NCBI GenBank assembly: GCA_027596945.1
Contig: JADGJH010000016.1
Coordinates: 1-43,937, forward strand
Source of the DNA: Physocladia obscura
Lineage: Eukaryota; Chytridiomycota; Chytridiomycetes; Chytridiales; Chytriomycetaceae
Length of the DNA: 43,937 nt
Reading direction: 5' to 3'
Positions 1,993-29,830 of this stretch are shown piece after piece (position 1 is the first letter of the stretch; every line of letters starts with the position of its first letter). Under the pieces are notes generated by a model. The model worked only from the letters and a program-made list of their open reading frames with translations. It was not told the origin of the DNA and did no database searches. The translations under genes were made by a program, and so were the position numbers.

Positions 1993-3979
1993 ATGGCGCC
2001 AATTGGAGTACGTATGCACAAGAATGTATTCCTCCCCATACAAACTGAATACTAACTCATGATCTGTATTGTTTTTGCAGAAACTCCACACCTGTAAGCA
2101 AAAATTAAATATAAAACAAACGAGCGGCACACAAACAGCCCTTGTTTATTCATTGATGTCTTATCCCGCGCCATTCAGACCCAAACAACCCGCGTGTTGC
2201 CAAGGCTCTTATCGCTGCCAAGTTCAACGGCGTCGAGATTGAGATTGTCCCAGTTGAGATGGGCAAGACCAACAAGGTGCGTTTTTTTTTTCTTCTTGGT
2301 TGTATGGATGAGTTGGGGTGTGATTTTGGCGATTTCAACCGTTGACTCGAGTCGAATAATATTGTGCGCGTACAGTCGACGTATTATCGAAATATCTTGT
2401 TGTTTGCTACACACCACTAATATCAACTTTTTTTTTTTTTTTGTTAATGGTGGCAGGCCCCAGAATTTTTGAAGAAGTTCCCACTTGGAAAGGTCCCAGC
2501 ATTTGAAGCCAACGATGGATTCACTCTCTATGAAAGCAACGCTATTGCCTTCTATGGTTCGAATTAGCAAACTAAATATATATTTTTGTTTTAAATTAAC
2601 CTATTTGTTTTCAATGTTGTTCCACAGTTGCTGCTTACAAGCAAGGATCCGACCTGCTCGGAGCATCCCCAAAAGAATCCGCCCTCATCCAACAATTCAT
2701 TGGAGTTGCCGACAACGAAATCCAACCGGCCGCCGCAACCTGGCTTTTCCCAATTCTCGGCTGGATCCCCAACAACGAAGCCAACACTGCGAAAGCGAAA
2801 GAAGACATCAAGAACGTTCTATCGGCGCTCAACGCCCACCTCCTCACGCGCACCTACCTCGTCGGCGAGACTGTCACACTCGCCGATATCACGCTCGTTA
2901 CGGAGCTGCTTAACTTTTTCCACACTGTGTTTGACCCGGCGTTCCGCGCGTCGTACAAGAACGTGACCCGTTGGTTCACCACTTTGGTTAACCAGCCGCA
3001 GTTTAAGGAAGTTCTTGGCGATGTTGTGCTTGCCGAGAAGGAACAAGTTCCCGGTGCGGCCCATGCCCCTGTTGCTGTTTCTGCTGCTGCTACTACTGCC
3101 CCTGCCGCCGCCCCAGTGGCGAAAGCCGACAAGGCACCAAAGGCAGAAAAGGCGCACAAGGCCGAAAAGGCGCACAAGGCCGAAAAAGCTCACAAAGCTG
3201 AAAAGGCACCTAAAGCCGTCGCCGCCGCCGCCGCCGCACCAAAGAAGGAAGCCGACGACGAAGAGGAAGAGGAGAACTTTGCTGACGAGAAGCCAAAGGC
3301 CAAGAATCCATTGGACCTGTTGCCAAAGTCTGACTTTAACCTGGAAGAGTGGAAGCGCTTCTACTCGAACAACGACACTCGTCCAACGGCTGTCGACTGG
3401 TTCTGGGAGCACTTTGACCCAACTGGTTTCTCCATTTACCGTCTCGATTACAAATACAACAGTGAACTGACTTTGGTGAGTTTATTTTTGTGTTGCCTAC
3501 TTCTGCTTCTTGCGTATATATTCAACTTGCTGGGCGTGATGAGCATCAAATCAAAAAACAGTTATCCCTGACGGAAATGCATTTGTCGAGATGATATACT
3601 CTGATCCCTTCTCTCTTTTTTTTCTCTGTTCCATGTCTTTTTTTCACTTCCTCGTTTGCTAATGTTTATAAAAAATAAGGTGTTCATGTCTTCCAACTTG
3701 GTTGGTGGAGTGTTCCACCGTCTTGAATCCGTTCGCAAGTATGCTTTCGGATCACTCGCTGTTCTTGGTGAAGACAACAAAAACTCTATTGCCGGTTACT
3801 TTGTGTACCGTGGCGACGGAATCCCAGCCGAAGTGCAGGACTCCCCAGACTTTGAGTCCTGGAAATTCACAAAGGTTGATTCAAAGGATCCCAAGACCCG
3901 TGAGCTGTTTAACTCGTACATTGCTTGGGATGAGATTATTGAGGGCAAGACGTTTGCAGATGCAAAGGTGTTCAAGTAA
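1993..3979 (+). CDS. EEF1G: Elongation factor 1B gamma subunit (eEF1-gamma)
   Basis: Six exons (1993-2007, 2081-2093, 2179-2276, 2457-2556, 2628-3475, 3680-3979) give 457 residues. Residues 1 to about 210 form a glutathione-S-transferase-like domain ([28 protein letters not shown]). Then comes an Ala/Lys-rich linker of about 80 residues with the hexad KAEKAH repeated. The C-terminal EF1G domain (about residue 295 on) begins [16 protein letters not shown] and contains the family's typical DWFWEHFDP and [13 protein letters not shown]. It scaffolds the eEF1B nucleotide-exchange complex that recharges eEF1A with GTP. The start is fixed by MAPIG followed by a 15-base first coding exon and a 13-base microexon; a longer start is not available upstream in frame. 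The exon joins reproduce the family consensus without gaps. Confidence 0.96.
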
Positions 3980-17949: not shown

Positions 17950-17984
17950 ATCACGCGCACCCCCCGTGCACTGGCCCGCACAGT

Positions 17985-18340
17985 TTTCTCTGTGGAGCTT
18001 CTCTAATAAAAATTTGAATTTCAAAGATTTTCCCTTCGGGTAGTGACAAATCAACTCAACTTTGAATAGTGGGGATTGTTCACTAAAAGACAGTGACGTG
18101 TATTTTGCTTTATTTCAGTGAGAGTGCTCACTAAGAAAATTCATTTTTGTGACAAATCAACTCAACTTTGAATCCTGTGGGATTGTTCACTGGCAGTGAG
18201 TGAGGAATAATGTGAGTTATTTTAGTCGGAGTGTTCGCTCAAAATGATGCGTTTATTTTGAGACGAATCAACTCGACTTTGAACAGTCTGTTTACTTTAC
18301 ACAGAGAGTTAGTCATGAATAATGTGATTTCTGTGAGTGA
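17985..18340 (+). repeat. Left subterminal repeat array, copy 1
   Basis: The array starts with a conserved block at about 17978-18044 (CACAG-TTTTCT-CTGTG hairpin, then GAGCTTCTCTAATAAAAATTTG). Three degenerate units follow at 18045, 18151 and 18262, spacing 106 and 111 bases. Each begins GACAAATCAACTCAACTTTG or a close variant. The first two continue with GATTGTTCACT, then an AGTGA-rich part and TGAATAATGTGA-like segments. The same block plus units recur at the left end of copy 2. Confidence 0.8.
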
Positions 18341-18394
18341 GACTCTTCGTTTTTTGAATGAGAGTATTGTATGTGGTCAATTGACTCCTCAAAA

Positions 18395-18448
18395 TACAGA
18401 GTTGTAGGCTTCAGGGAGTGTTGGAAATAGGAATCCAACAACTCTGTA
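18395..18448. repeat. Perfect 11-bp inverted repeat inside an insertion specific to copy 1
   Basis: TACAGAGTTGT (18395-18405) and ACAACTCTGTA (18438-18448) are exact reverse complements with a loop of about 32 bases. The structure lies in roughly 190 bases that copy 1 has and copy 2 lacks between the repeat array and the first gene. TGTTGG and CCAACA inside it could form a competing stem. Confidence 0.7.
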
Positions 18449-18600
18449 CTGTACAGCTTTTTGGCACAGTTGGTAGTAAGAAAAAAGTTCGCTCAGCTGG
18501 ATTTTTTGTACTAAAAATAGAAACAAATACATCAACAACTATTTTAATGTCAATTGAATGATATTTACTTAAAATTATTTTCTTTTATAATAATAAAACT

Positions 18601-19233
18601 ATGACTGTTACAATTCCATCCACAACTGTGAGAAATCGATTCTTAAAGACCTTTCCTATTTGAACAATCTTTAAGGACCCACGTAATGAACATCACTATG
18701 AAGTTCAAGAACGTAAAATTAATACCACTCTTTCGAAAATAGGTGTGCCATATTTTGGTTCAAACAAGCTTGTTGTTATTGAAGTGCCTGACAAATGGAT
18801 GAAAATGGCCAATCTGACGAGAGCCAACATTAATCAATCAATGAAGGAACAAATCAACAAGTTAGAAGAGAGTGTCAAGAGACTTCATTCAGAACTGAGA
18901 CGGGCGACGGACCCTGATTTCGAAAAGCCGTCGGTGATTGAAATAAAACATTCATTACTGGATAAAATAAAACAATTAATGAATGGTAATGAATACTTTG
19001 AGACTGATTCTGAATTGTTCTATGTTGATAAGACACTAGTGTATTATCTAAGAACAAAGAGCAGTGGTGATAATAAAAAGAGGATACACAGAATAAAACA
19101 CAATTTAATGAAGGGAGACATAAACCTGTGTAAAGAACTCCATGACAACCAGCCAGCTATCCAAAAGAGACTCTATCATCACTTGAAGAAGGAACTCGAA
19201 GATGAAAAGATTGTTGAAATAAAGAGACGTTAA
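18601..19233 (+). pseudogene. Element coiled-coil protein, copy 1 (nonsense mutation)
   Basis: Homologous to the plus-strand gene of copy 2. The intended protein starts MTVTIPSTTVRN and is about 210 residues long, Lys/Glu-rich, with a coiled-coil segment (SMKEQINKLEESVKRLHSEL) and a basic C-terminus. An in-frame TGA at codon 21 replaces the glycine codon (GGA) of copy 2, so only the downstream part remains open. The stop TAA at 19231-19233 overlaps the stop of the opposing zinc-finger gene. I do not recognise the family. Its place beside the left repeat array fits a structural or DNA-end-binding protein, but that is only inference. Confidence 0.65.
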
Positions 19234-20051
19234 TCATTGTCAGAGTCAGAGAATGCTGGAATCGGTGCTCTATCCTGAGAAAACATGTGGCCCAGAAAGT
19301 CTTGAATGCTTTTGTTTCCTTGACTGTTTTGTCTTGTGTTTACATATACAGTGTCACAGGGCTCCAATTCCATAAACACTGGTTCTGATGGATTCGATGA
19401 ACAGTTCATGTGCACCAATGTCTCTGATATTGTTCCATTTGAAAGATTCCTTATTGTTGTAATGGTGATTGTTGTTGGGAGTTTAGTGAGTGACAATGGA
19501 CAAACAACCCACTTACCACATTCATTCTTGTACACCAGGACTACTGCTTCGTGTGTTGTAAGTACTCCATCAGTAGGTGCGTCATTCAAATCCAGTTTGA
19601 AGCCTTGTTTTTTTGCATCCCATCCACCAAATTCTATCTGTGAAATATTTCTTTCAATAACTTGAGTCTTGCATCTTGTTTCAAAGTGACTCTGCATAGT
19701 TTTTCTTGAAATCACTTTTCTTTGACACATGAAGCATTTGTGTTTCTTGTAGTTACAGTCTTAAACGTGTTCATCAAGATTCCATTTGAGTACTTTCATT
19801 TTACAATTTTCATTGGTGCATGATTCTAAAAAGGGTGTAAGTGTAACCTGCAGCTGTTTATTCTGAAATAATGATTCAGTCTTACATTGCGGGCACTTCT
19901 GGCCCAATCCATGGCAACATTTGATACAAACAAAGTGTGGATTTGACCTGTTTGCACATTGGATAATGGGAAAGTTTATATTTTCAAGACAGACACAACA
20001 GGTCAAGTCAGATTGTTTTAAAGTCATTGAGTAGTTTACTGTTGATTCCAT
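19230..20051 (-). pseudogene. Element RING/TRAF-like zinc-finger protein, copy 1
   Basis: The frame begins MESTVNYSMTLKQSD. It carries a RING-type C3HC4 pattern: CCVCLENINFP, then HFVCIKC, then CPQC. Further Cys/His pairs (CTNENC, CNYKKHKCFMC, HFETRC) resemble a TRAF/SIAH second zinc finger. A C-terminal beta-rich part follows, with a tail SQDRAPIPAFSDSDND. An in-frame TAA follows LDEHV, where copy 2 has CAA, a C-to-T change. Such proteins are usually E3 ubiquitin ligases; a role in modifying host proteins is inference. Otherwise this copy keeps the zinc-finger segment that copy 2 has lost. Confidence 0.72.
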
Positions 20052-20109
20052 TTTATAATATTAGCAAAAGATTATAAATATTTGAAAAAGTCCACAAAAA
20101 TGGAATTAT

Positions 20110-21611
20110 TGGACCTCGCCATTTTTTACAACAATTGCAATTGTTTGACCCAACTCATTGTTTTCTTGTCTCGAAATCAGTCACAGATTCCAATAGGCAT
20201 TAATGCTCATGAAGTCATCATCTGTGGTATGTTGGCATCATGGCTTGATGTGGTCTATCTCATATCCTCTTGGCACTACTCCATCAGGAATACCAAGATG
20301 CTCCAACAGCTCTTGTCTCTTAACAAAAGTATGTTTCAAACTGAACTCATCAGAACAGTCCTTTTGAAAAATGTAGTTGATTACTTGAACAGCCTCGATT
20401 CTCTTTCATTTGACTCATCTTTCAAGTCTCGCTCTCTCTTCTTCTTCTTCATTCTTTCAAAATCAGTCTCTTTTGTCACTTTATGTTTTATGTGGTCATC
20501 AATTACATTAACGTATTCCTTTTTAGTTGTTCTGCTTATCGCTGTGTATTGCATATCTTTCTTCATCAGGCCCCATTCATGGATAGTGAATGGCTCTCTA
20601 ATTGAATCGCCTTGAACTCGATGGACTGTCGAACAATAGTTGACCCAGAAATATAACTGAAATTGCTCAACAGTAATCTCAATTGTGTCCTTGGTCACTG
20701 TGTCTTCTAATAATATCAATAGCTCAATCTTTTTCACCATAAATGTCACATTGTTAACAAGTCCGAGCTTCTTGTAGTTTCTATTTGAAATCACTGGAGT
20801 GCCAACCATCAAAAGAACATCTTGTGAGTTTGGGTCATCATTGTTTGCTTCTATTCTAATCATCTTCTTTTTCTTTAGTTTGTCTCGCTGCATCATAATT
20901 CATTGATTTGCTTATGCTTCGCATGAGTGTACACTAGATTGATTTGAGTAAAAGAGTGTTTATTGTCAAAGTCTCTTGGATTCAAAGTATCTAAATGTCA
21001 AATAGCACAGTAACTGAGTTGTCTGAATGATGATTAATCAAAAGCTCTGTTATACTGTAATCAACCAGTTCTTTTAATGCTAGGGTACTGAGATAATTGT
21101 ATTTTTTATTGTATTTCTCCACTCCTCCCAACTGTTTATAGTCACCAACTAACACAAACTTGACTTTTGTTTGCAGCTTTACAAAATACAAGATTTCATA
21201 AATCGCTGCTCTCAACATGCCAACTTCATCAATGAAAATGTACTGATATCTGCTGGCTGCCTTTACAGCTTCTTTCAAGTTACACTTGTCGTTGTTGTCA
21301 ATATGAAAGAAATGATGGACTGTCTGACCATTAATCAGTCTCGCAGCCTTGTTTGTACTTGCCAACAATACAAATGACCCTGGCTCCAATTTTTTAATGG
21401 TTTCTCTGACTTTGGTCGATTTCGCAACACCTGCCATTCCAGTTAATAACTGATGCTGTAATCTGTTTTCTGTTGGAATCCTGTCTTTGTTCTCAAGCTG
21501 AAACGCATACGTACTCTTGAATGGCTCAGATACTTTGTACTCTGTAAGTTGACAAAAAATGAAAGTTGATATTTTCTCCACCCACCAAAGGGGAAGCCGA
21601 TTGAAATTCAA
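20110..21611 (-). pseudogene. Element SF1 helicase plus HNH nuclease, copy 1
   Basis: The helicase motifs are visible: a Walker A region GMAGVAKST (copy 2 has GLAGTGKST), FIDEVGM (motif II), LVGDYKQLGG (motif III), the STVHRVQGDS region (motif V) and YTAISRTT (motif VI). Downstream, in the frame set by copy 2, is an HNH-type module with GYEIDHIKP and INAYWNL. Damage includes a one-base deletion near NEIMMQRD, a one-base difference before the HNH part, and two TGA codons in the HNH region where copy 2 has AGA and CGA. The upstream polymerase is missing. The family is Pif1/RecD-like SF1A, as found in viruses and large transposons. Confidence 0.72.
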
Positions 21612-21639
21612 AATTTTATCAGAGAATCGAAAGTGAATC

Positions 21640-22110
21640 GGGAAATAAATTCAATAGTCGTTGTTTTGTTGTGTCTATTTTCAGTACAGCTAATATTGAA
21701 ATGACCATACACATTCAATAAACACATCATTAAAACTCTCACTTAAATCCATCACACTATTTGTCACTGGATTTGAGTTGGACAATTTCTTTTAGCATTG
21801 AAACATCATACTCTCAGTGGAGAACACACACTAAAATCATTCACATTATTCATCACTCACTCCCAGTGAACAATCCTCATGCCATTTGAAGTTGAGTTGT
21901 TTTATTGAAGAAGTTTGTGTTGAATCTATTTTTAGTTCAAAAAATCAGGCCAGCTGAACTTTTTTCTTCGTCCACACACAATACTCAGAGTTTCACATTC
22001 CTCACTCACTCTGAGTGAACAATCCTCACTATTCTTAGTTGAGTTGATTCATCACACAATACTCATTTCATTCAAACAAGCACAATGTTTTCAGCGACTC
22101 TTCTCACTCA
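21640..22110 (-). repeat. Right subterminal repeat array, copy 1 (inverted)
   Basis: The same unit motifs appear in reverse complement: AGTGAACAATCCTC at about 21865 and 22016, GTTGAGTTG-type cores at about 21891 and 22040, and a weaker unit near 21760. A 40-base block at about 21926-21970 matches in reverse the block at about 18478-18523 (AAAAAAGTTC..CAGCTGG..ATTTTTTG..ACTAAAAATA). The order of parts is not an exact mirror of the left end, so the ends have been rearranged or truncated. The first block of copy 2 begins at about 22120. Confidence 0.7.
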
Positions 22111-22119
22111 ACCCCCCAA

Positions 22120-22480
22120 TCACACACCCGCACAGTTTTTTCTGTGGAGCTTCTATAATAAAAATTTGTATTTCAAAGGATTTCCCTTTGGGTAGTGACA
22201 AATCAACTCAACTTTGAATGATGTGGTTTATTCTTGCTGAGATTTAGTGACGTGTTTTGTGTTTGATTTATGTGGGTGTCTTCAGTGAGAAATCATTGCT
22301 GTGACAAATCAACTCAACTTTGAATGGGTGAAGATTGTTCACTCAATGTTAGTGATGAATAATTTGAACAATTTTAGTGTGTATTATGGCTAAGAAAATT
22401 CATTTCTGACTTGACCTTGAAAAGCCTGTTTACTTTACACTGAGACTAAGGGATGAATAGTGTTATTTTTTGGAGTGATG
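22120..22480 (+). repeat. Left subterminal repeat array, copy 2
   Basis: The hairpin CACAG-TTTTTT-CTGTG is followed by GAGCTTCTATAATAAAAATTTG. Units beginning GACAAATCAACTCAACTTTG sit at 22197 and 22303 (106 bases apart), and a degenerate third unit is near 22408. The block and spacing match the left end of copy 1. Confidence 0.8.
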
Positions 22481-22567
22481 AGACTATTCAACTACTATTT
22501 TACACTGTATTTAATTTCAATTTAACAATATTTACTTAAAATTATTTTCTTTAATAATAATAAAACT

Positions 22568-23245
22568 ATGACTGTCACATATCCATCCACAACTGTGAGA
22601 AATTGATTCTTAAAGACCATTCCTATTGGAACAATCTATAAGGACCCACGTAATGAACATCACTATGAAGTACAAGAACGTAAAATTAATACCACTCTAT
22701 CTAAAGTGGGCGTACCATATTTTGGTTCAAATCAGGCCATTGTGATAGAAGTGCCTGACAAATGGATGAAAATGATTAACCCAACAAGAGCGAATATCAA
22801 CCAATCAATGAAGGAACAAATCAACAAGTTAGAAGAGACTATCAAGAGACTTCAATCAGAACTGAGAGTGGCAACGGACCCTGATTTTGAGAAACTGTCA
22901 GTGATTGAAATAAAACATTCATTATTAGGTAAAATAAAACAATTAATGAATGGTAACAAATACTTTGAGATGGATTCAGAGTTGTTCTTTGTTGACAATA
23001 GTTTGGTCTATTATCTAAGAAAGAAGAAAGATGGTGACAATAAAAAGAGAATTCAGAGAATTAAGCATGATTTAATGAAGGGAGACACAACCCTTTGCAA
23101 AGAACTCCATCACAACCAGCCAGCCATCCAAAAAAGGCTCTATCATCACTTGAAGAAGGAACTCGAAGATGAAAAGATTGTTGAAATAAAGAGACGTAAA
23201 TCATTGTCAGAGTCAGAGAATGCTGGAATCGGTGCTCTATCCTGA
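22568..23245 (+). pseudogene. Element coiled-coil protein, copy 2
   Basis: Starts MTVTYPSTTVRN. Codon 13 is then TGA where copy 1 has CGA (Arg), so translation from the original ATG is cut. The open remainder is about 180 residues with PYFGSN, a Lys/Glu coiled coil, and a tail KRRKSLSESENAGIGALS. That tail is 12 codons longer than the copy 1 product, because a single base change removed the TAA stop. It is the same family as copy 1, at roughly 85-90 percent identity by eye. Function unknown. Confidence 0.65.
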
Positions 23246-23981
23246 GAAAACATGTGGCCCAGAAAATCTTGAATGCTTTTGTTTCCCTGACTGTTTTGTC
23301 TTGTGTTTATATATACAGCATCAAAGGTCTCCAATTCCATAAATACCAGCTCTGACAGATTAGATTAACAGTTCATGTGTAGTGATGTTTCTGATATTGT
23401 TCCATTCAAAAGATTCCTTATTGTTGTAATGGTGATTGTTGTCAGGAGTTTAGTCAGTGACAATGGACAAACAACCCACTTACTGCATTCATTCTTGTAC
23501 ACCAGAACAACTGCTTCGTGTGTTGTAAGCACTCCATCTGTAGGCCCATCATTCAAATCCAGCTTGAAGCCTTGTTTCTCTGAATCCCATCCACTCATTT
23601 CAATCTGTGACAAATTTCTGTTGATAACTTGAGTCTTGCATCTTGTTTCAAAGTGACTCTGCAGCATTTGTGTTTTTTGTAGTCACAATCTTGAATGTGT
23701 TCCTCAAGATTCCATTTAAGTACCTTGAACTTGCAGTTTTTATAAGTGCAAGCTTCTAAAAATGGTGTCAATGTAACTTGCAACTGTTTGTTTTGAAATA
23801 GTGATTCAGTCTTACATTGAGGGCACTTTTGGCCCAATTGATGGTGGCATTTTATGCAAATAAAATGTGGGTTTGACCCATTTGCATATTGTATTATTGG
23901 AAAGTTTATGTTTTTGAGGCAGACACAGCATATAAAGTCAGATTGTTTTAAGTTCATTGAGTAGTTTACTATTGATTCCAT
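23146..23981 (-). pseudogene. Element RING/TRAF-like zinc-finger protein, copy 2
   Basis: The RING part is complete (CCVCLKNINFP, HFICIKC, CPQC). A 37-base deletion, relative to copy 1, then removes the second zinc finger and shifts the frame just after KHKC. Further on, TAA replaces a serine codon (TCA in copy 1) after HMNC. At the 3' end the TAA stop of copy 1 has become TTA, so the frame runs on to 23146 and overlaps the plus-strand gene by about 100 bases. The gene is certainly dead in this copy. Confidence 0.72.
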
Positions 23982-24064
23982 TTTATAATATTAGCAAAAG
24001 ATTTTAATTTTTTGAAAAAGTCCATGAAAATGGAATTTCTGAACCAATCAGAAGTCGCAATTTT

Positions 24065-27000
24065 TTACAACAATTGCAATTTTTGACCCAACTTGTTATT
24101 TTCTTGTCTCGAAATCAGTCGCAGGTTCCAATAAGCATTGATGTTCTTGAAGTCATCATCTGTTATGTGCTGGCTTCTTGGTTTGATGTGGCCTATTTCA
24201 TATCCTCTTGGCACCACTCCATCAGGAATACCAAGACACTCCAATAGCTCTTGTCTCGCTACAAAAGTATGCTTCAAACTAAAGTCATCAGAACAGCCTT
24301 TTTGAATAATGTAGTTGATTACTCAAACAGCCTCAATTCTCTTTCATTTGAGTTCATCTTTTAAATCTCGCTCTCTCTTCTTCTTCTGTTTCATTCTGTT
24401 TATATCAGTATCCTTTGTCAATTTATGTTTTATGCCATCATCAACAACATTAATGTATTCCTTTTTAGTTGTTCAACTTATTGCAGTGTATTGCATATCA
24501 TCTTCCATTCTGTTCCATTCATGGATTGTAAAAGGCTCTTGGATAGAATCTCCTTGCATCTTGTGGACAGTTGAACAATAATTTACTTTAAAGTATAGCT
24601 GGAACTGCTCGTTATTAATCTCAATTGTCTCTTTTGACAACATATCTTCCAGTAATATCTGTGGCTCAATCTTTCGAACTGAATATGTAGCACAATTCAC
24701 GATTTTCAGGGACTTGTAGTTTCTATGTGCAATAACCAGAGTACCAACCATCAACAATACCTGCTGTGAGTTTGTGTCATCCTTATTTGCTCCTATTTTA
24801 ATCATTTTTTTCTTTTTTAGTTTATCTCGTTGCATCATGATTTCATTGATTTGTTTATGTTTTTCATTTGTATATGATAGATTAACTCTTGTAAATGCAT
24901 GTCTATTGTCAAAGTCACTTGGTTTCAACTGGTGAACCTTGTCAAACAGCTCAGAAACTGTGTTGTTTGACCTGTGATTTACAAGTAACTCTGTCATACT
25001 ATTTTCAACAATCTCTTTCAGTTGAGTCCATGTACTTTAGTCTTGGCCTTTCAACCCCTCCAAGCTGTTTGTAGTCACCAACCAAGACAAACTTTATGTT
25101 GGAATGCAGTTTGACATAATAAAAGACTTCATATGCACTTGATTTCAACATGCTCACTTCATCAATGAAAATATATTTATATTTTATTGCTGCTTTCAAA
25201 GCTTCCTTGAAATTACATTTACCATCATTATCAATGTGAAAAAAGTGATGTACAGTCTGTCCTTGAATCAAACGTGCTGTTTTGTTTGTACTTGCCAAGA
25301 GAATATAGGTCCCTTTATCTAACAGTTTGGTTGTTTCTTTTAGTTCTGTTGATTTTCCTGTACCTGCAAGCCCAGTAATGAGTCTTCCTTGTAATCTTTC
25401 TTCACAGGGATAAAAAAGTTCCTCTCTCAACTCGAAAACATAATTACTAAGAAATGAATCTTTGACTTTGTACTTGTCTGGAAGCTTTTCTAATCAATAA
25501 TTTCCAATCCCTGGTCCACAATGAACCTCATTACCATCCTCGACAATAACACTATCTGTTTTTAATTGAACAATTGTTCCAGCCATTTTCATTGCTAGTT
25601 TATATAACATCATGTTTCCATTGTCAATAATCTGCCAGTAAATCGGAATCAGATTTTGATACTTCATTTTCTTTGATTTAATCTTGACATGATATAATTT
25701 CAAGTCTTCTGCAATACATGAGTAACCTGCATTTTCATTTGAGCAGTAATATCGCGCAACATCGTTGAAACTTATTGTAAATTTGTCTGTTTGTTTTCTA
25801 TCATACTTTTTATTGAGACAGCCTATAAAGCAGTTTACCATGATTTTACCGTTATCATTGCCACACTTGTCATAAATCCTTTTTACAAAAGCATTAAAGT
25901 AATCTGGTTTTAATGTTTTGCTTGGAATCAGTTTGTAAACAATCTTCATTGTCACTTGTAGTTCTAAACATTCAGCAATAATATGACAAGGATACCATCT
26001 TGTTCCTCTCAATGGAAAGGTATTTTCTGTCTCTACATAAAACCAATCTGTTCTCAGTTTACCAGAATATGGCCTAATTTCATCAAAGATATTAAATGCG
26101 CACCATGGTTCTGTGTTTTTAACACTTAAACAAGCAGAATGACACTTTTGAATATTGTAAGCCTTCAAATTAGCTTCTGGTGATGGCTCATAGAATGTCT
26201 CAACAATGGGGCCTTTCACACAGTCAAAGAATACCTTGTGAGTGTTCTTGTTGAATGTGCTTTCAATTTTATCATCCTGCTTATAAATCTCAAAGGCTTT
26301 GCACACTAAAGATATAAGATTTTGATTTCTAAATGGTATCAAGAGAGATTTCAAAGCAGCCAGAGCTTGTTCATAATGTTTATTCACTTCAATTATTACA
26401 TTATTCTTGTATTCAATTCTGACAATGTATCCACCATGACTCTTGGTCTTGTAAATTGTTTCCTCTTTTCTTGCTAAAAAGACAACAAGCTCTTTCAAAT
26501 CATTTTTGTTGGTGTATACAACATTGCAATTTTCAAGTAAAAGAATACTTTTGTAAGGAACATTCAATAGAGTATGTACTTCCCCATCAAATGAATTCTT
26601 TGATTTTATTTTAGTTTTGAAAACAAGATTGTCATTGGAGCCTTTCAATTTCTCAGAAGCAACAATTGACCTTCTCATTTCTTTATCCAATACTGGATAC
26701 ATGTGATTGTTGGCTACTAAAAATATTAAGGCTGGTGCATGATGATTTCTATTTTGAGGAATGAATCAACTGAATGTTTCCATTTCCATATACAAGCTAA
26801 TACCAAATCGATGACAGAATACTTTAACTTGCTTTGTCGAAACGCCAGAATCAGTGTGTGTTTCTTCAAAGATGGAGAGAAGTACTTCATTTGTCAATGT
26901 TTTAAAGTGACTTGAATATGCATTCATCAAGAATTTGTAGACGCAGTCCTTATTGTTTGTTGAATTTGGTTCTACCTTTAATGAATAGTATGACAATACA

Positions 27001-27551
27001 GCTCCATATATTGGTTGTTCTTCAAGGGGTATGTGCCAGTATGGAACAGGTTGAGTTGTGTAGTTAATCTCTAAAATCTCACAGTCGTATGGCTGCCTTG
27101 CTGCATACTCTTTTGTCACTGTATCAAGGTGTTGTTCAATCAAATGGTCAGGAAAATCTCGAATGATACCAGTTTTGCTATTGTTGTAATTGTAATCGCT
27201 GTAATGAATCACATACTTGAATTCATAATAAACAATTACTTTCTAGGAGACGAGAGTTGGAAGATAATACAATGAATAGTCAATGTGTCTTTCTTTTTGA
27301 GCATCAAACGGGGCACTTGGTCTCTTTTTCTTTGATGAAGTATCCATTTGTTGCTCCTTTCTTGATGATTCAGGTGAATCTGCCCCCCTTCTCTTCAAAA
27401 CATTATGAACAACATCCATACCCCCGTTTTGAAGTTGCTTCACTGTCTTGTCAGTTTTCTTGATGAACGTGTTGTCCAACTTTAGAATATAGTTTCCAAT
27501 AATTGTTGCTTTATTGTTCCCAATGAGATTGGCAATGTGTGATTGCAACAT
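24065..27551 (-). pseudogene. Element B-family DNA polymerase - SF1 helicase - HNH nuclease in one frame
   Basis: Reading the minus strand from MLQSHIANLIGN, a basic Ser/Lys-rich N-terminal part is followed by a polymerase-like region. Its motif-B-like KIMVNCFIGC lies near 25840 and its motif-C-like QLKTDSVIVEDG near 25550. The FPLRGTRWYP block is shared, from memory, with organellar/viral-type family B polymerases. The same frame then enters the helicase: GLAGTGKST, FIDEVSML, LVGDYKQLGG, STVHKMQGDS and YTAIS. It ends in an HNH-like module (GYEIGHIKPRSQH, INAYWNLRLISRQENN). Apart from one helicase frameshift near 25030, single stops are all that interrupt it: TAG after TLVS, TGA after METFS, TGA after GIGNY, TGA at the motif VI arginine, and two TGAs before the HNH. 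I infer an ancestral protein of about 1150 residues. Two or three adjacent genes in one frame is an alternative. Confidence 0.7.
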
Positions 27552-27761
27552 CTTGTGTTCCTTTTCGTTACGAGGAAGCTTGATTTGGTTTACAACAGTT
27601 CTACTTCAAATAACTGTATAATTTGGTAGAAAGGATGTACATTTTTGAACGAGAACATGTTTAGTATTATAAAATAAAATAAGTTTTCAAATTAAATTGA
27701 TTTTTTTCTGATTAGACAAAAAGTATTTTGGAAATTCTAGAACCCAATCTTTCAACTGGAA

Positions 27762-27908
27762 ATGGCACTTGATGCCTACCGTGACGCTTTCATCAAGTGG
27801 ATGAGAGGAGAGCTAGCAAAACCCGCTGATGATTTACATCAAGATTTGCGCGCTATCAAATTGCCTATCATCAGAAAGATACTTTCGCAATTTGATGCTC
27901 TTTCTTGA
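27762..27908 (+). CDS. Small ORF of unknown function next to the element end
   Basis: A 48-codon frame, MALDAYRDAFIKWMRGELAKP to ILSQFDALS. It is strikingly protein-like (amphipathic, few rare codons) for AT-rich surroundings and has A at -3 of the ATG. It could be a first exon, a gene fragment or chance. It is divergent from the polymerase gene. I do not recognise it. Confidence 0.25.
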   Translation: MALDAYRDAFIKWMRGELAKPADDLHQDLRAIKLPIIRKILSQFDALS

Positions 27909-28078
27909 CTACAAACGGCACAGCAAGTGATGCTGAGAGTACCTTGTAGGGGAAAACGCGCCTACATATCAAAGTTCAGATTATGCAGCTCAAAATTTTG
28001 AATTGGTTGAATTTGACAGTGACTGAATTCTTAGTTTTTATTTCAACTTTGAGTAATAAAGCAAACTTGACTACAACA

Positions 28079-29358
28079 TCAAACGGAATTTAATTTATGT
28101 TCCTGATAAGCAATGAGTCTTGCAAGAAGGGGTCGAATTATCATTACAAGAACTTTGTAAGGGTGCAGCGTGAGCGGGATATCGTTGTTGACATGATATT
28201 TGTTGAGGGTCTCTTTTGAATGGAAGGCGGGATGAGCAAACTTAACATCGTTAATTCGCACTCCCATTAAAACAACGTCAGTTGCTTGGTAATAGCCATC
28301 AGCATCCCAGATACTGTATTTAAAAAAAATCAGATTGTTATTCGACATCAATTAAAAAAGAACTAACCGGTCACCAGTGACATCCAATATTGTATGAGAA
28401 ATCCCTGATATGATGCAAATAGAACAAAATCTTGTAACGAACGCCTTGAATTCCCAATCTTTCCACAAACGCCTGTCTTCCTTCTTGCAATTGAATGCGC
28501 TTTTTGACTTGAGAAGATGACAGCAAATTCAGTAGTGGGAATGAGGCACTTCCTCGATACTCCGAATTCACTTAATTTTCTCGCTGACGCGTCGTCGTCA
28601 TCGGCAATGTAACAATCAACCACAGCATCTGCAAGTGTGGGGTTGTAGTTGTCGATAAACGTTCTGAGCAATGATTCTCGTTCGAGTTTCGACATCTTAT
28701 TGAACAGACTATACGAAAAGTTAGTCAAGAAGAGAAAGGAGTAGAAAAAATTACCGTTGGCAAAACAGACAGCTACATACAGCTTCTTGTCCTAAATCAA
28801 AGTATCCACCCTTTTCAAGGCGGTCGACCGACCCCTGTGCAAAAAGCGTTCAATGATTCAAATAAAACAAAACTCAGTGAATATTTACTTGGCTGTCATT
28901 TCCGGCTTTCCAAACCACAGCAACACCGCAGTGTGTACATGCAGCACCTTGTCCATCCTCCAATCGTGCATAGGCTTCCTCCCGTCCGGTTTCAGTCCGA
29001 GTTTGAACTTGTCCGTCAGCAACTCACCCATTTAATGCAACAGAAAGAATCAAGTCAATGCATTGGTTGCGAGTTTCGGTAACTCCGTCTCGTTGTGACA
29101 TTGCATTAGCAAGCATGTATACCTGAGCAGAGACGAATGTTTGTTCTCGAATCCGAGCCTAAATTGAATAAGAAAGTCAGTTTAAAAGGGGCATCTCGGC
29201 GGGAAGGGGGTGAATTTGACACTTACTTTTGGATTGTTCTGTTGAAATAAAAAAAATCAATTAGTAATTTGAAACAAAAGTCAAAAGAGAGAGAACACGA
29301 CCTGGCTGAGGGTCGTGTTTAAAGGGGGCATTTCGGCGGGAAACTCAAGGGAAACCAT
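28079..29358 (-). pseudogene. Unrecognised spliced zinc-ribbon-like gene with an in-frame TGA
   Basis: Seven candidate exons on the minus strand join in frame: 29358-29302, 29238-29227, 29158-28889, 28834-28755, 28708-28572, 28507-28375 and 28313-28079. Every intron is GT-AG, and the joins between the last five exons keep phase exactly, which makes the model credible. The product (about 307 residues) has two Cys pairs of zinc-ribbon type (CTHCG and CSCLFC, about 40 residues apart), an acidic stretch (DDDDASARK), and a C-terminal part with HHIRDFSYN and WDADGYYQATDVVLMGV. A TGA at 29024-29026 sits between two halves in the same frame (LSVALNG, then VADGQVQTRTETG). It could be a nonsense mutation or an intron I failed to place. 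I know no family with this order. The gene's 5' end abuts a mitochondrial DNA insertion. Confidence 0.5.
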
Positions 29359-29365
29359 TATATTA

Positions 29366-29460
29366 TACTACGGGCCGAACCGAAACATCGTAGTAAGCCT
29401 AGGAAAGGAAATCAACCGAAACCCTGTCAGTAGCGGCGAGCGAACGCAGGATAGCCTAGT
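29366..29460 (+). rRNA. rnl: Fragment of mitochondrial large-subunit rRNA (5' domain)
   Basis: The stretch CCGAAACATCGTAGTAAG, then GGAAAGGAAATCAACCGA, then CAGTAGCGGCGAGCGAACG follows the order and spacing of domain I of bacterial-type 23S rRNA. Only this small part is present, so it cannot be functional. It differs from the cytosolic eukaryotic 28S version, which lacks the AAATCAACCGA form. Confidence 0.75.
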
Positions 29461-29482
29461 AGAGATCCGAAGTTCCATGCGT

Positions 29483-29508
29483 GTGGGGGTGTGAGCTCAC
29501 GCCCCCAC
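29483..29508. repeat. GC-rich palindrome of mitochondrial type
   Basis: GTGGGGGTGTGA and TCACGCCCCCAC pair over 12 base pairs (one G-T wobble) with a two-base loop. It lies directly downstream of the rRNA piece. GC-rich palindromes of this kind are known as mobile hairpin elements in mitochondrial genomes of chytrid and blastoclad fungi. Confidence 0.7.
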
Positions 29509-29595
29509 CCCAACTTAAGTTAGCGGGCGTATTCTTAAATTGGGGGGGGGGATGAGTAGAACTCCTATCGAAAGAAGAATTAGCTCCAAGGCAAT

Positions 29596-29666
29596 AACTG
29601 TATAGTTCAATGGTAGAATAGCGAACTTCAAATCCGCGCATGCATGTTCAATTCGTGCTGCCCCTG
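29596..29666 (+). tRNA. trnW: Decayed mitochondrial tRNA-Trp (anticodon TCA), in the NUMT
   Basis: The cloverleaf fits 71 bases: D arm GTTC-AATGGTA-GAAT, anticodon loop CTTCAAA (TCA), T arm GCATG-TTCAATT-CGTGC, 3' acceptor strand TGCCCCT and discriminator G. The 5' acceptor strand AACTGTA pairs at only four of seven positions with TGCCCCT, and the anticodon stem has one A-C mismatch, so it is a relic. A TCA anticodon on tRNA-Trp reads UGA as tryptophan, typical of fungal mitochondria and not of this nuclear genome. Confidence 0.75.
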
Positions 29667-29830
29667 TACGTGGTGAATGTGAGGGATATAGTATCAATGG
29701 TTAGCTATCTGAATAGGTTATGTGCCTAGTACTATAGGCCTAGAAACGACGCAATCTCCATTGACTCGTCAATTCAATACTTTATTAGGAGTTCACCACT
29801 GAGTTGCAGCACAGGGCGCGACCACGGCCC

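Follow-up and report, generated by a model that had tools for sequence, protein, structure and literature searches.

A polymerase-helicase-nuclease fusion protein of a probable mobile element in the chytrid fungus Physocladia obscura

Introduction

Can polymerase, helicase and nuclease modules be joined in a single fungal gene, and, if so, what would its product replicate? This question is raised by a stretch of 43,937 nt from Physocladia obscura (contig JADGJH010000016.1 of assembly GCA_027596945.1, forward strand; the window), for which a preliminary description had proposed one minus-strand frame joining a family B polymerase, a superfamily 1 (SF1) helicase and an HNH nuclease. All three modules proved to be real and to share that frame, here called gene A, and the window probably contains, in two decayed copies, an integrated mobile element of a self-replicating type that lacks a capsid and would be copied by the gene A protein. 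In what follows, L denotes genomic stretches of the same genome, P homologous proteins, C contigs and A1 the alignment of relatives; papers are cited by PMC number, for the parts of their text that were available.

A fusion gene and its relatives

Gene A (24065..27658, minus strand; start set by comparison with L009) is predicted to encode, behind an N-terminal part, a protease resembling vOTU, the palm of a protein-primed family B polymerase (PolB), a helicase of the Pif1 type and an HNH nuclease. The stops divide the frame into 27246-27605, 26769-27242, 25497-26765 and 25008-25493, and past the frameshift into 24476-25036 and 24068-24322. The preliminary description had noted isolated stops and one frameshift in the helicase; in tblastn with a stop-free relative, the single frameshift falls near 25.02-25.03 kb, with three stops to either side of it. 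An alternative genetic code was rejected as the cause of the stops, because some copies have long open frames with the standard code and the gene A of the window is also frameshifted.

The SF1B (Pif1/RecD2-type) helicase (24454..25409, minus strand, with the frameshift inside it) is matched in Pfam by AAA_30 (1.6e-13) and PIF1 (5.6e-7). The HNH module (24068..24322, minus strand) has a weak Pfam match in the window (0.036) and is clearer in stop-free relatives; in the places read, the H and N residues are each present in 15/15 and the D in 14/15, being G in the gene A of the window. The putative vOTU-like cysteine protease region (26640..26960, minus strand; P0003 residues 175-283) has its Cys at 26945 and its His at 26705, residues found in 15/16 and 17/17 of the places read, respectively. 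In P0003, the conserved Cys 180 opens a predicted helix (180-189) and the conserved His 263 stands at a predicted strand (263-266). A Peptidase_C39 match, of unspecified position in the protein, was obtained in 2/13 members (best 0.0038), and an OTU protease is absent from the list returned by the whole-model fold search, a list that a single domain can fill.

Judged from the sequences of its relatives, the fusion is natural. Homologue searches recovered P0001, P0002 and P0003-P0014, and these include stop-free single proteins of 1144 aa (P0003, Obelidium mucronatum), 975 aa (P0005, metagenome), 760 aa (P0007) and 623 aa (P0002). P0003 and P0005 extend from the protease-like part through to the HNH module, and P0007 and P0002 from inside the polymerase part to the HNH module; the N-terminal part is missing to varying extent from P0005, P0007 and P0002, and the P0003 gene model lacks ~80 N-terminal residues that are present in L009. 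P0004 (Chytriomyces cf. hyalinus) covers the N-terminal part to the helicase. The SF1 helicase lies C-terminal to the palm within the same protein, as in the pPolB-S1H fusion, and the HNH module is C-terminal in 4/13 A1 proteins and placed ahead of motif A in P0012-P0014. The prospect, raised in the preliminary description, that intact homologues might always encode the modules as separate genes is contradicted by these fused proteins. For the two chytrid proteins compared with this genome, P0003 and P0009, the best identities were 91% and 92%.

Copies, ends and gene order of the element

A terminus search placed the copy that contains gene A (copy 2) at 22114..29829 on the minus strand, with a clear end at 22114 (E 2.9e-8) and a tentative one at 29829 (E 0.027, best 3e-5); a terminus of the latter type also flanks the element in L024, at 1312 (E 0.002). 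Copy 1 (17962..22059, minus strand) has its polymerase part deleted and retains gene C (18571-19230, plus strand), gene B (19314-20087, minus strand) and remnants of the helicase and HNH modules (20130-21542, minus strand); repeats near 21.8-22.06 kb match its own left end. In copy 2, gene B (23281..24017, minus strand) is assigned by Pfam to RING / TRAF-type zinc-finger proteins, and gene C (22538..23197, plus strand), convergent with B, encodes a conserved protein of unknown function.

Gene order was surveyed in the window and 16 fetched stretches, several of which end at a contig end or are cut. Gene A is followed by B, with convergent C, in 10/10 copies that have all three genes (the window twice, L009, L010, L013, L014, L016, L019, L020 and L024); A followed by B is also found in L011, L012, L015 and L017, and A only in L018, L021, L022 and L023. 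Inverted repeats occur at both element ends in L009 (67% over 252), L016 (70% over 268) and L020 (84% over 164, plus further blocks), and the element lengths given by these terminal inverted repeats (TIRs) are ~8.6, ~7.15 and ~8.7 kb, respectively. Matches to the palm piece number at least 102 and are spread over at least 61 contigs of a genome of 21.76 Mb; for gene C the count is at least 151.

The polymerase palm and its possible activity

Gene A has a palm of the protein-primed family B type, in which motifs A, B and C are recognised; the stretch that contains the motif A position (26156) spans 25497..26582 on the minus strand. In hhalign local mode, the palm profile aligned with phi29 at E 0.025, motif B falling on motif B, and with PRD1 at 0.12, while the shuffled, the reversed and the capsid controls lay at 0.38-0.61; global mode gave no standout, and the likeness of the palm sequence to phi29 and PRD1 is suggestive only. 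The fold alignment to phi29 begins at phi29 residue 6 and spans residues of the exonuclease part. An exonuclease-like remnant in the gene A protein is possible on this model; no conserved D-x-E exonuclease motif was noticed by eye.

Several points weigh against an element replicated by this protein. Searches of Pfam, PHROGs, NCBIfam and PDB sequences, in part among the 25 commonest families listed, gave no sequence match to a polymerase; the AlphaFold2 (AF2) alignments had a depth of just 13-14 sequences, and confidence in the model of the whole protein is only moderate (pLDDT 67.6, pTM 0.40). The vOTU assignment consists of two residues and predicted secondary structure, and neither a terminal protein domain nor an origin nor a linear molecule was seen. 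Asn occupies motif A in 6/7 members of the window's subfamily, which argues against catalysis there. In addition, no clear target-site duplication was present in L016 and L020, where both flanks were read (L020 has at best a flanking A run, L016 none). The preliminary description had tied its polymerase to a profile match, and on this point Pfam, taken literally, goes against it, but the comparison of modelled folds overrules that lack.

The motif A substitution bears on a reading in which the palm is inactivated and is retained because it offers the helicase-nuclease a platform for DNA binding or priming, a reading which we regard as unlikely but as the strongest of the alternatives. Consistent with it, motif C of the chytrid proteins reads KTD and lacks its first Asp, and of the 19 palm-bearing copies read, 8 carry Asn at motif A (window copy 2, L005, L015, L016, L017, L018b, L020 and L021). 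Six of these belong to the window's subfamily; for their palms, the ratio of nonsynonymous to synonymous change (dN/dS) is 0.16-0.30 in 10/15 pairs and 0.32-0.60 in the 5 remaining pairs, with the decayed L018b taking part in four of these. Against it, motif A Asp is retained in the other 11 copies and in 11/11 A1 relatives that cover the site (P0002 and P0008 stop short of it), and polymerases that lack the first Asp of motif C have been argued to be active (PMC11071308).

Six of the eight Asn copies (all except L020 and L021, which are decayed and lie outside) form one clade with the Asp-bearing L024 (local support 1.000), within which branching is poorly supported. In the simplest history suggested by these sequences, the Asp was lost once, ahead of the spread of the subfamily, and regained once, in L024; repeated G-to-A change may also account for the Asn.

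Codon comparisons show past purifying selection on gene A. With the NG86 method on stop-free pieces, a dN/dS ratio could be formed for 9 of the 29 pairs reported and lay at 0.05-0.19; dS was saturated in the other 20, and 7/36 possible pairs had too few common codons. A wider codon table, limited to dS <0.9, gave 0.10-0.23 for Asp-type pairs (11/55) and 0.19-0.45 for Asn-type pairs (16/28). For the palm only, the ranges were 0.08-0.27 (Asp-type) and 0.16-0.60 (Asn-type), the decayed L018b pushing the latter up.

Relation to known elements

The fusion of a polymerase to a helicase was reportedly first named in a paper of 2016, and fusions of this type are said to have been read earlier as 'inactivated polymerase'.

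The 'Tlr1-like helicases' of polinton-like viruses and transpovirons are proteins that combine TP-like, vOTU, palm and SF1 helicase regions; the first Asp of their motif C is altered, and some have a C-terminal GIY-YIG or HNH homing nuclease (PMC11071308). The gene A protein largely fits this description, with a putative vOTU-like region, a palm that lacks the first Asp of motif C, an SF1 helicase behind the palm and a C-terminal nuclease. The exonuclease domain of Tlr1-like helicases is said to be lost (PMC11071308), whereas the fold alignment obtained here reaches exonuclease-part residues of phi29. The element further differs from carriers of Tlr1-like helicases by its fungal host, its motif A Asn subfamily and the absence of a recognised capsid, ATPase or integrase gene. 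The fusion that the preliminary description had regarded as unusual was already published, HNH versions included (PMC11071308); its reading of the carrier as a mobile element in a fungus stands.

Transpovirons are also similar in being ~7 kb long, with TIRs of hundreds of bases (380-520), no capsid, a pPolB-S1H protein, and zinc-finger and unknown-function genes beside the helicase in their core set (PMC7031253; PMC11071308). Size and TIRs of the copies described here fit this class, but transpovirons are linear, extrachromosomal, mimivirus-tied plasmids, whereas the present element is seen only as copies integrated in the genome of a fungus, and genes B and C are likened to the core genes by description. 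OmPLV of Oxyrrhis marina likewise unites a polymerase and an SF1 helicase in a single large protein and has many decayed copies, but its helicase lies ahead of the polymerase, its exonuclease is complete and the ~25 kb element has a capsid gene (PMC12721341). Polintons and ordinary protein-primed PolB share the palm fold and differ by a DTDS motif C and, in those described, by the lack of a helicase fusion.

A large survey of integrated protist viruses left out Fungi, and reported protist elements with helicases 'fused to an unknown domain' (PMC10120064). Such an element is unmentioned in the parts examined of PMC10799480 and PMC5294986, and no published report of one in chytrids or other fungi was found among the papers listed by a literature search largely outside subscription papers. 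As far as found, this fusion arrangement is known from some small protist viruses and from giant-virus plasmids and is undescribed in fungi.

Alternatively, the copies could be what is left of polinton-like viruses whose capsid genes have decayed away. Fusion proteins of this kind are typical of that group (PMC11071308), and ordinary polinton-type polymerase fragments with a DTDS or DSDS motif C, belonging to a different element, occur in the same genome (L027, C275:4251-4580; L028, C33:20356-20640). We consider this origin improbable, as three two-ended copies of 7.15 to 8.7 kb share one set of three genes in a constant order, which leaves ~1.5-3 kb for accessory genes, and the A32-type packaging ATPase PF04665 has 0 matches in the genome (the control was matched in 2/14 genomes). 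As for a possible dependence on a giant virus, Capsid_NCLDV and VLTF3 had no genome match, but their controls were likewise unmatched. No capsid family was found among the ORFs scanned, in a search that had no suitable major-capsid profile for polinton-like viruses, and no RVE or tyrosine integrase among the part of the element ORFs scanned with Pfam. No relative was found in a plasmid collection, or in viral contigs scanned with a few 8-residue patterns that are sensitive to close relatives only.

Finally, a host gene family or gene-prediction artefact, as the annotation of relatives as ordinary hypothetical proteins in chytrid genomes might suggest, can practically be dismissed in view of the terminal repeats, the internally deleted copy, the many decayed pieces and the presence in metagenomes.

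Partner and accessory genes

The zinc-finger assignment of gene B is clearest in L014 (zf-TRAF, 6.3e-9), the window gene giving only a weak Sina-type RING match (0.0098). Gene C has 30 homologues in chytrids and metagenomes, hypothetical or unnamed except for one, whose JGI name, maltooligosyltrehalose synthase, looks misapplied. Genes A and C are likely linked in three species, because their proteins lie on contigs of matching size: P0003 and P0022 (Obelidium; 68,714), P0004 and P0025 (356,797), and P0008 and P0027 (3,203, with consecutive Physocladia locus tags).

The genes upstream of A vary between copies. In copy 2, accessory gene D lies in pieces at 28097..29344 (minus strand; introns placed by eye) and matches residues 282-584 of Chytriomyces confervae P0009; its pieces also occur upstream of the element copy on C126. 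It had been considered a host gene that shortens copy 2, an idea dropped given the matches upstream of other copies. In the P0009 model (g10219), gene D and the protease part of gene A are joined, which is probably a prediction artefact. L012 has a separate OTU-type protease gene upstream of gene A (3098-3541; Pfam 1.5e-9), and upstream ORFs in L016 (2657-3127), L018 (1955-2308) and L012 (4476-4841) seem by eye to have a W..F/DF..W pattern in common; those scanned in L016 and L012 gave no telling Pfam match.

Other observations concern neighbouring sequences. Just inward of the tentative upper end of copy 2 is a tRNA-like Rfam match (37.8 bits; 29600-29661), and a decayed ORF that by eye resembles a reverse transcriptase lies beside the element copy in L019 (8091-9642). 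L025 (C443:15007-16198) has a PolB_2 match with nine in-frame TAG codons, which we presume are read as an amino acid, as in chytrid mitochondria, and is probably mitochondrial or plasmid DNA.

Proposed replication and significance

From the families to which its modules belong, the element would most likely be copied as linear DNA by protein-primed synthesis at its TIRs. The fused helicase would open the duplex, so that a separate replicative helicase would be unneeded, and the vOTU-like domain might release a priming domain by cleavage. Genes B and C are constant partners of gene A. As guesses, entry into the chromosome could proceed via breaks made by the HNH nuclease or via host repair.

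There is about an even chance that these copies represent a new superfamily of capsid-less, self-replicating elements of chytrid nuclei, 'transpovirons of the nucleus', defined by a protease-polymerase-helicase-nuclease protein and two constant partners, one subfamily of which spread after losing the motif A Asp, perhaps by using the polymerase of sister elements or through a new role of the palm. Gene models such as P0003, P0004, P0008 and P0009 are unlabelled pieces of the element in chytrid annotations, and the Asp-to-Asn subfamily makes the disputed activity of fusion palms directly testable. Such polymerase-helicase fusions connect small protist viruses with giant-virus plasmids; if an abundant capsid-less lineage in chytrids is real, this replication protein has also sustained a purely genomic lifestyle, and culturable chytrid hosts could allow tests of protein-primed transposon replication.
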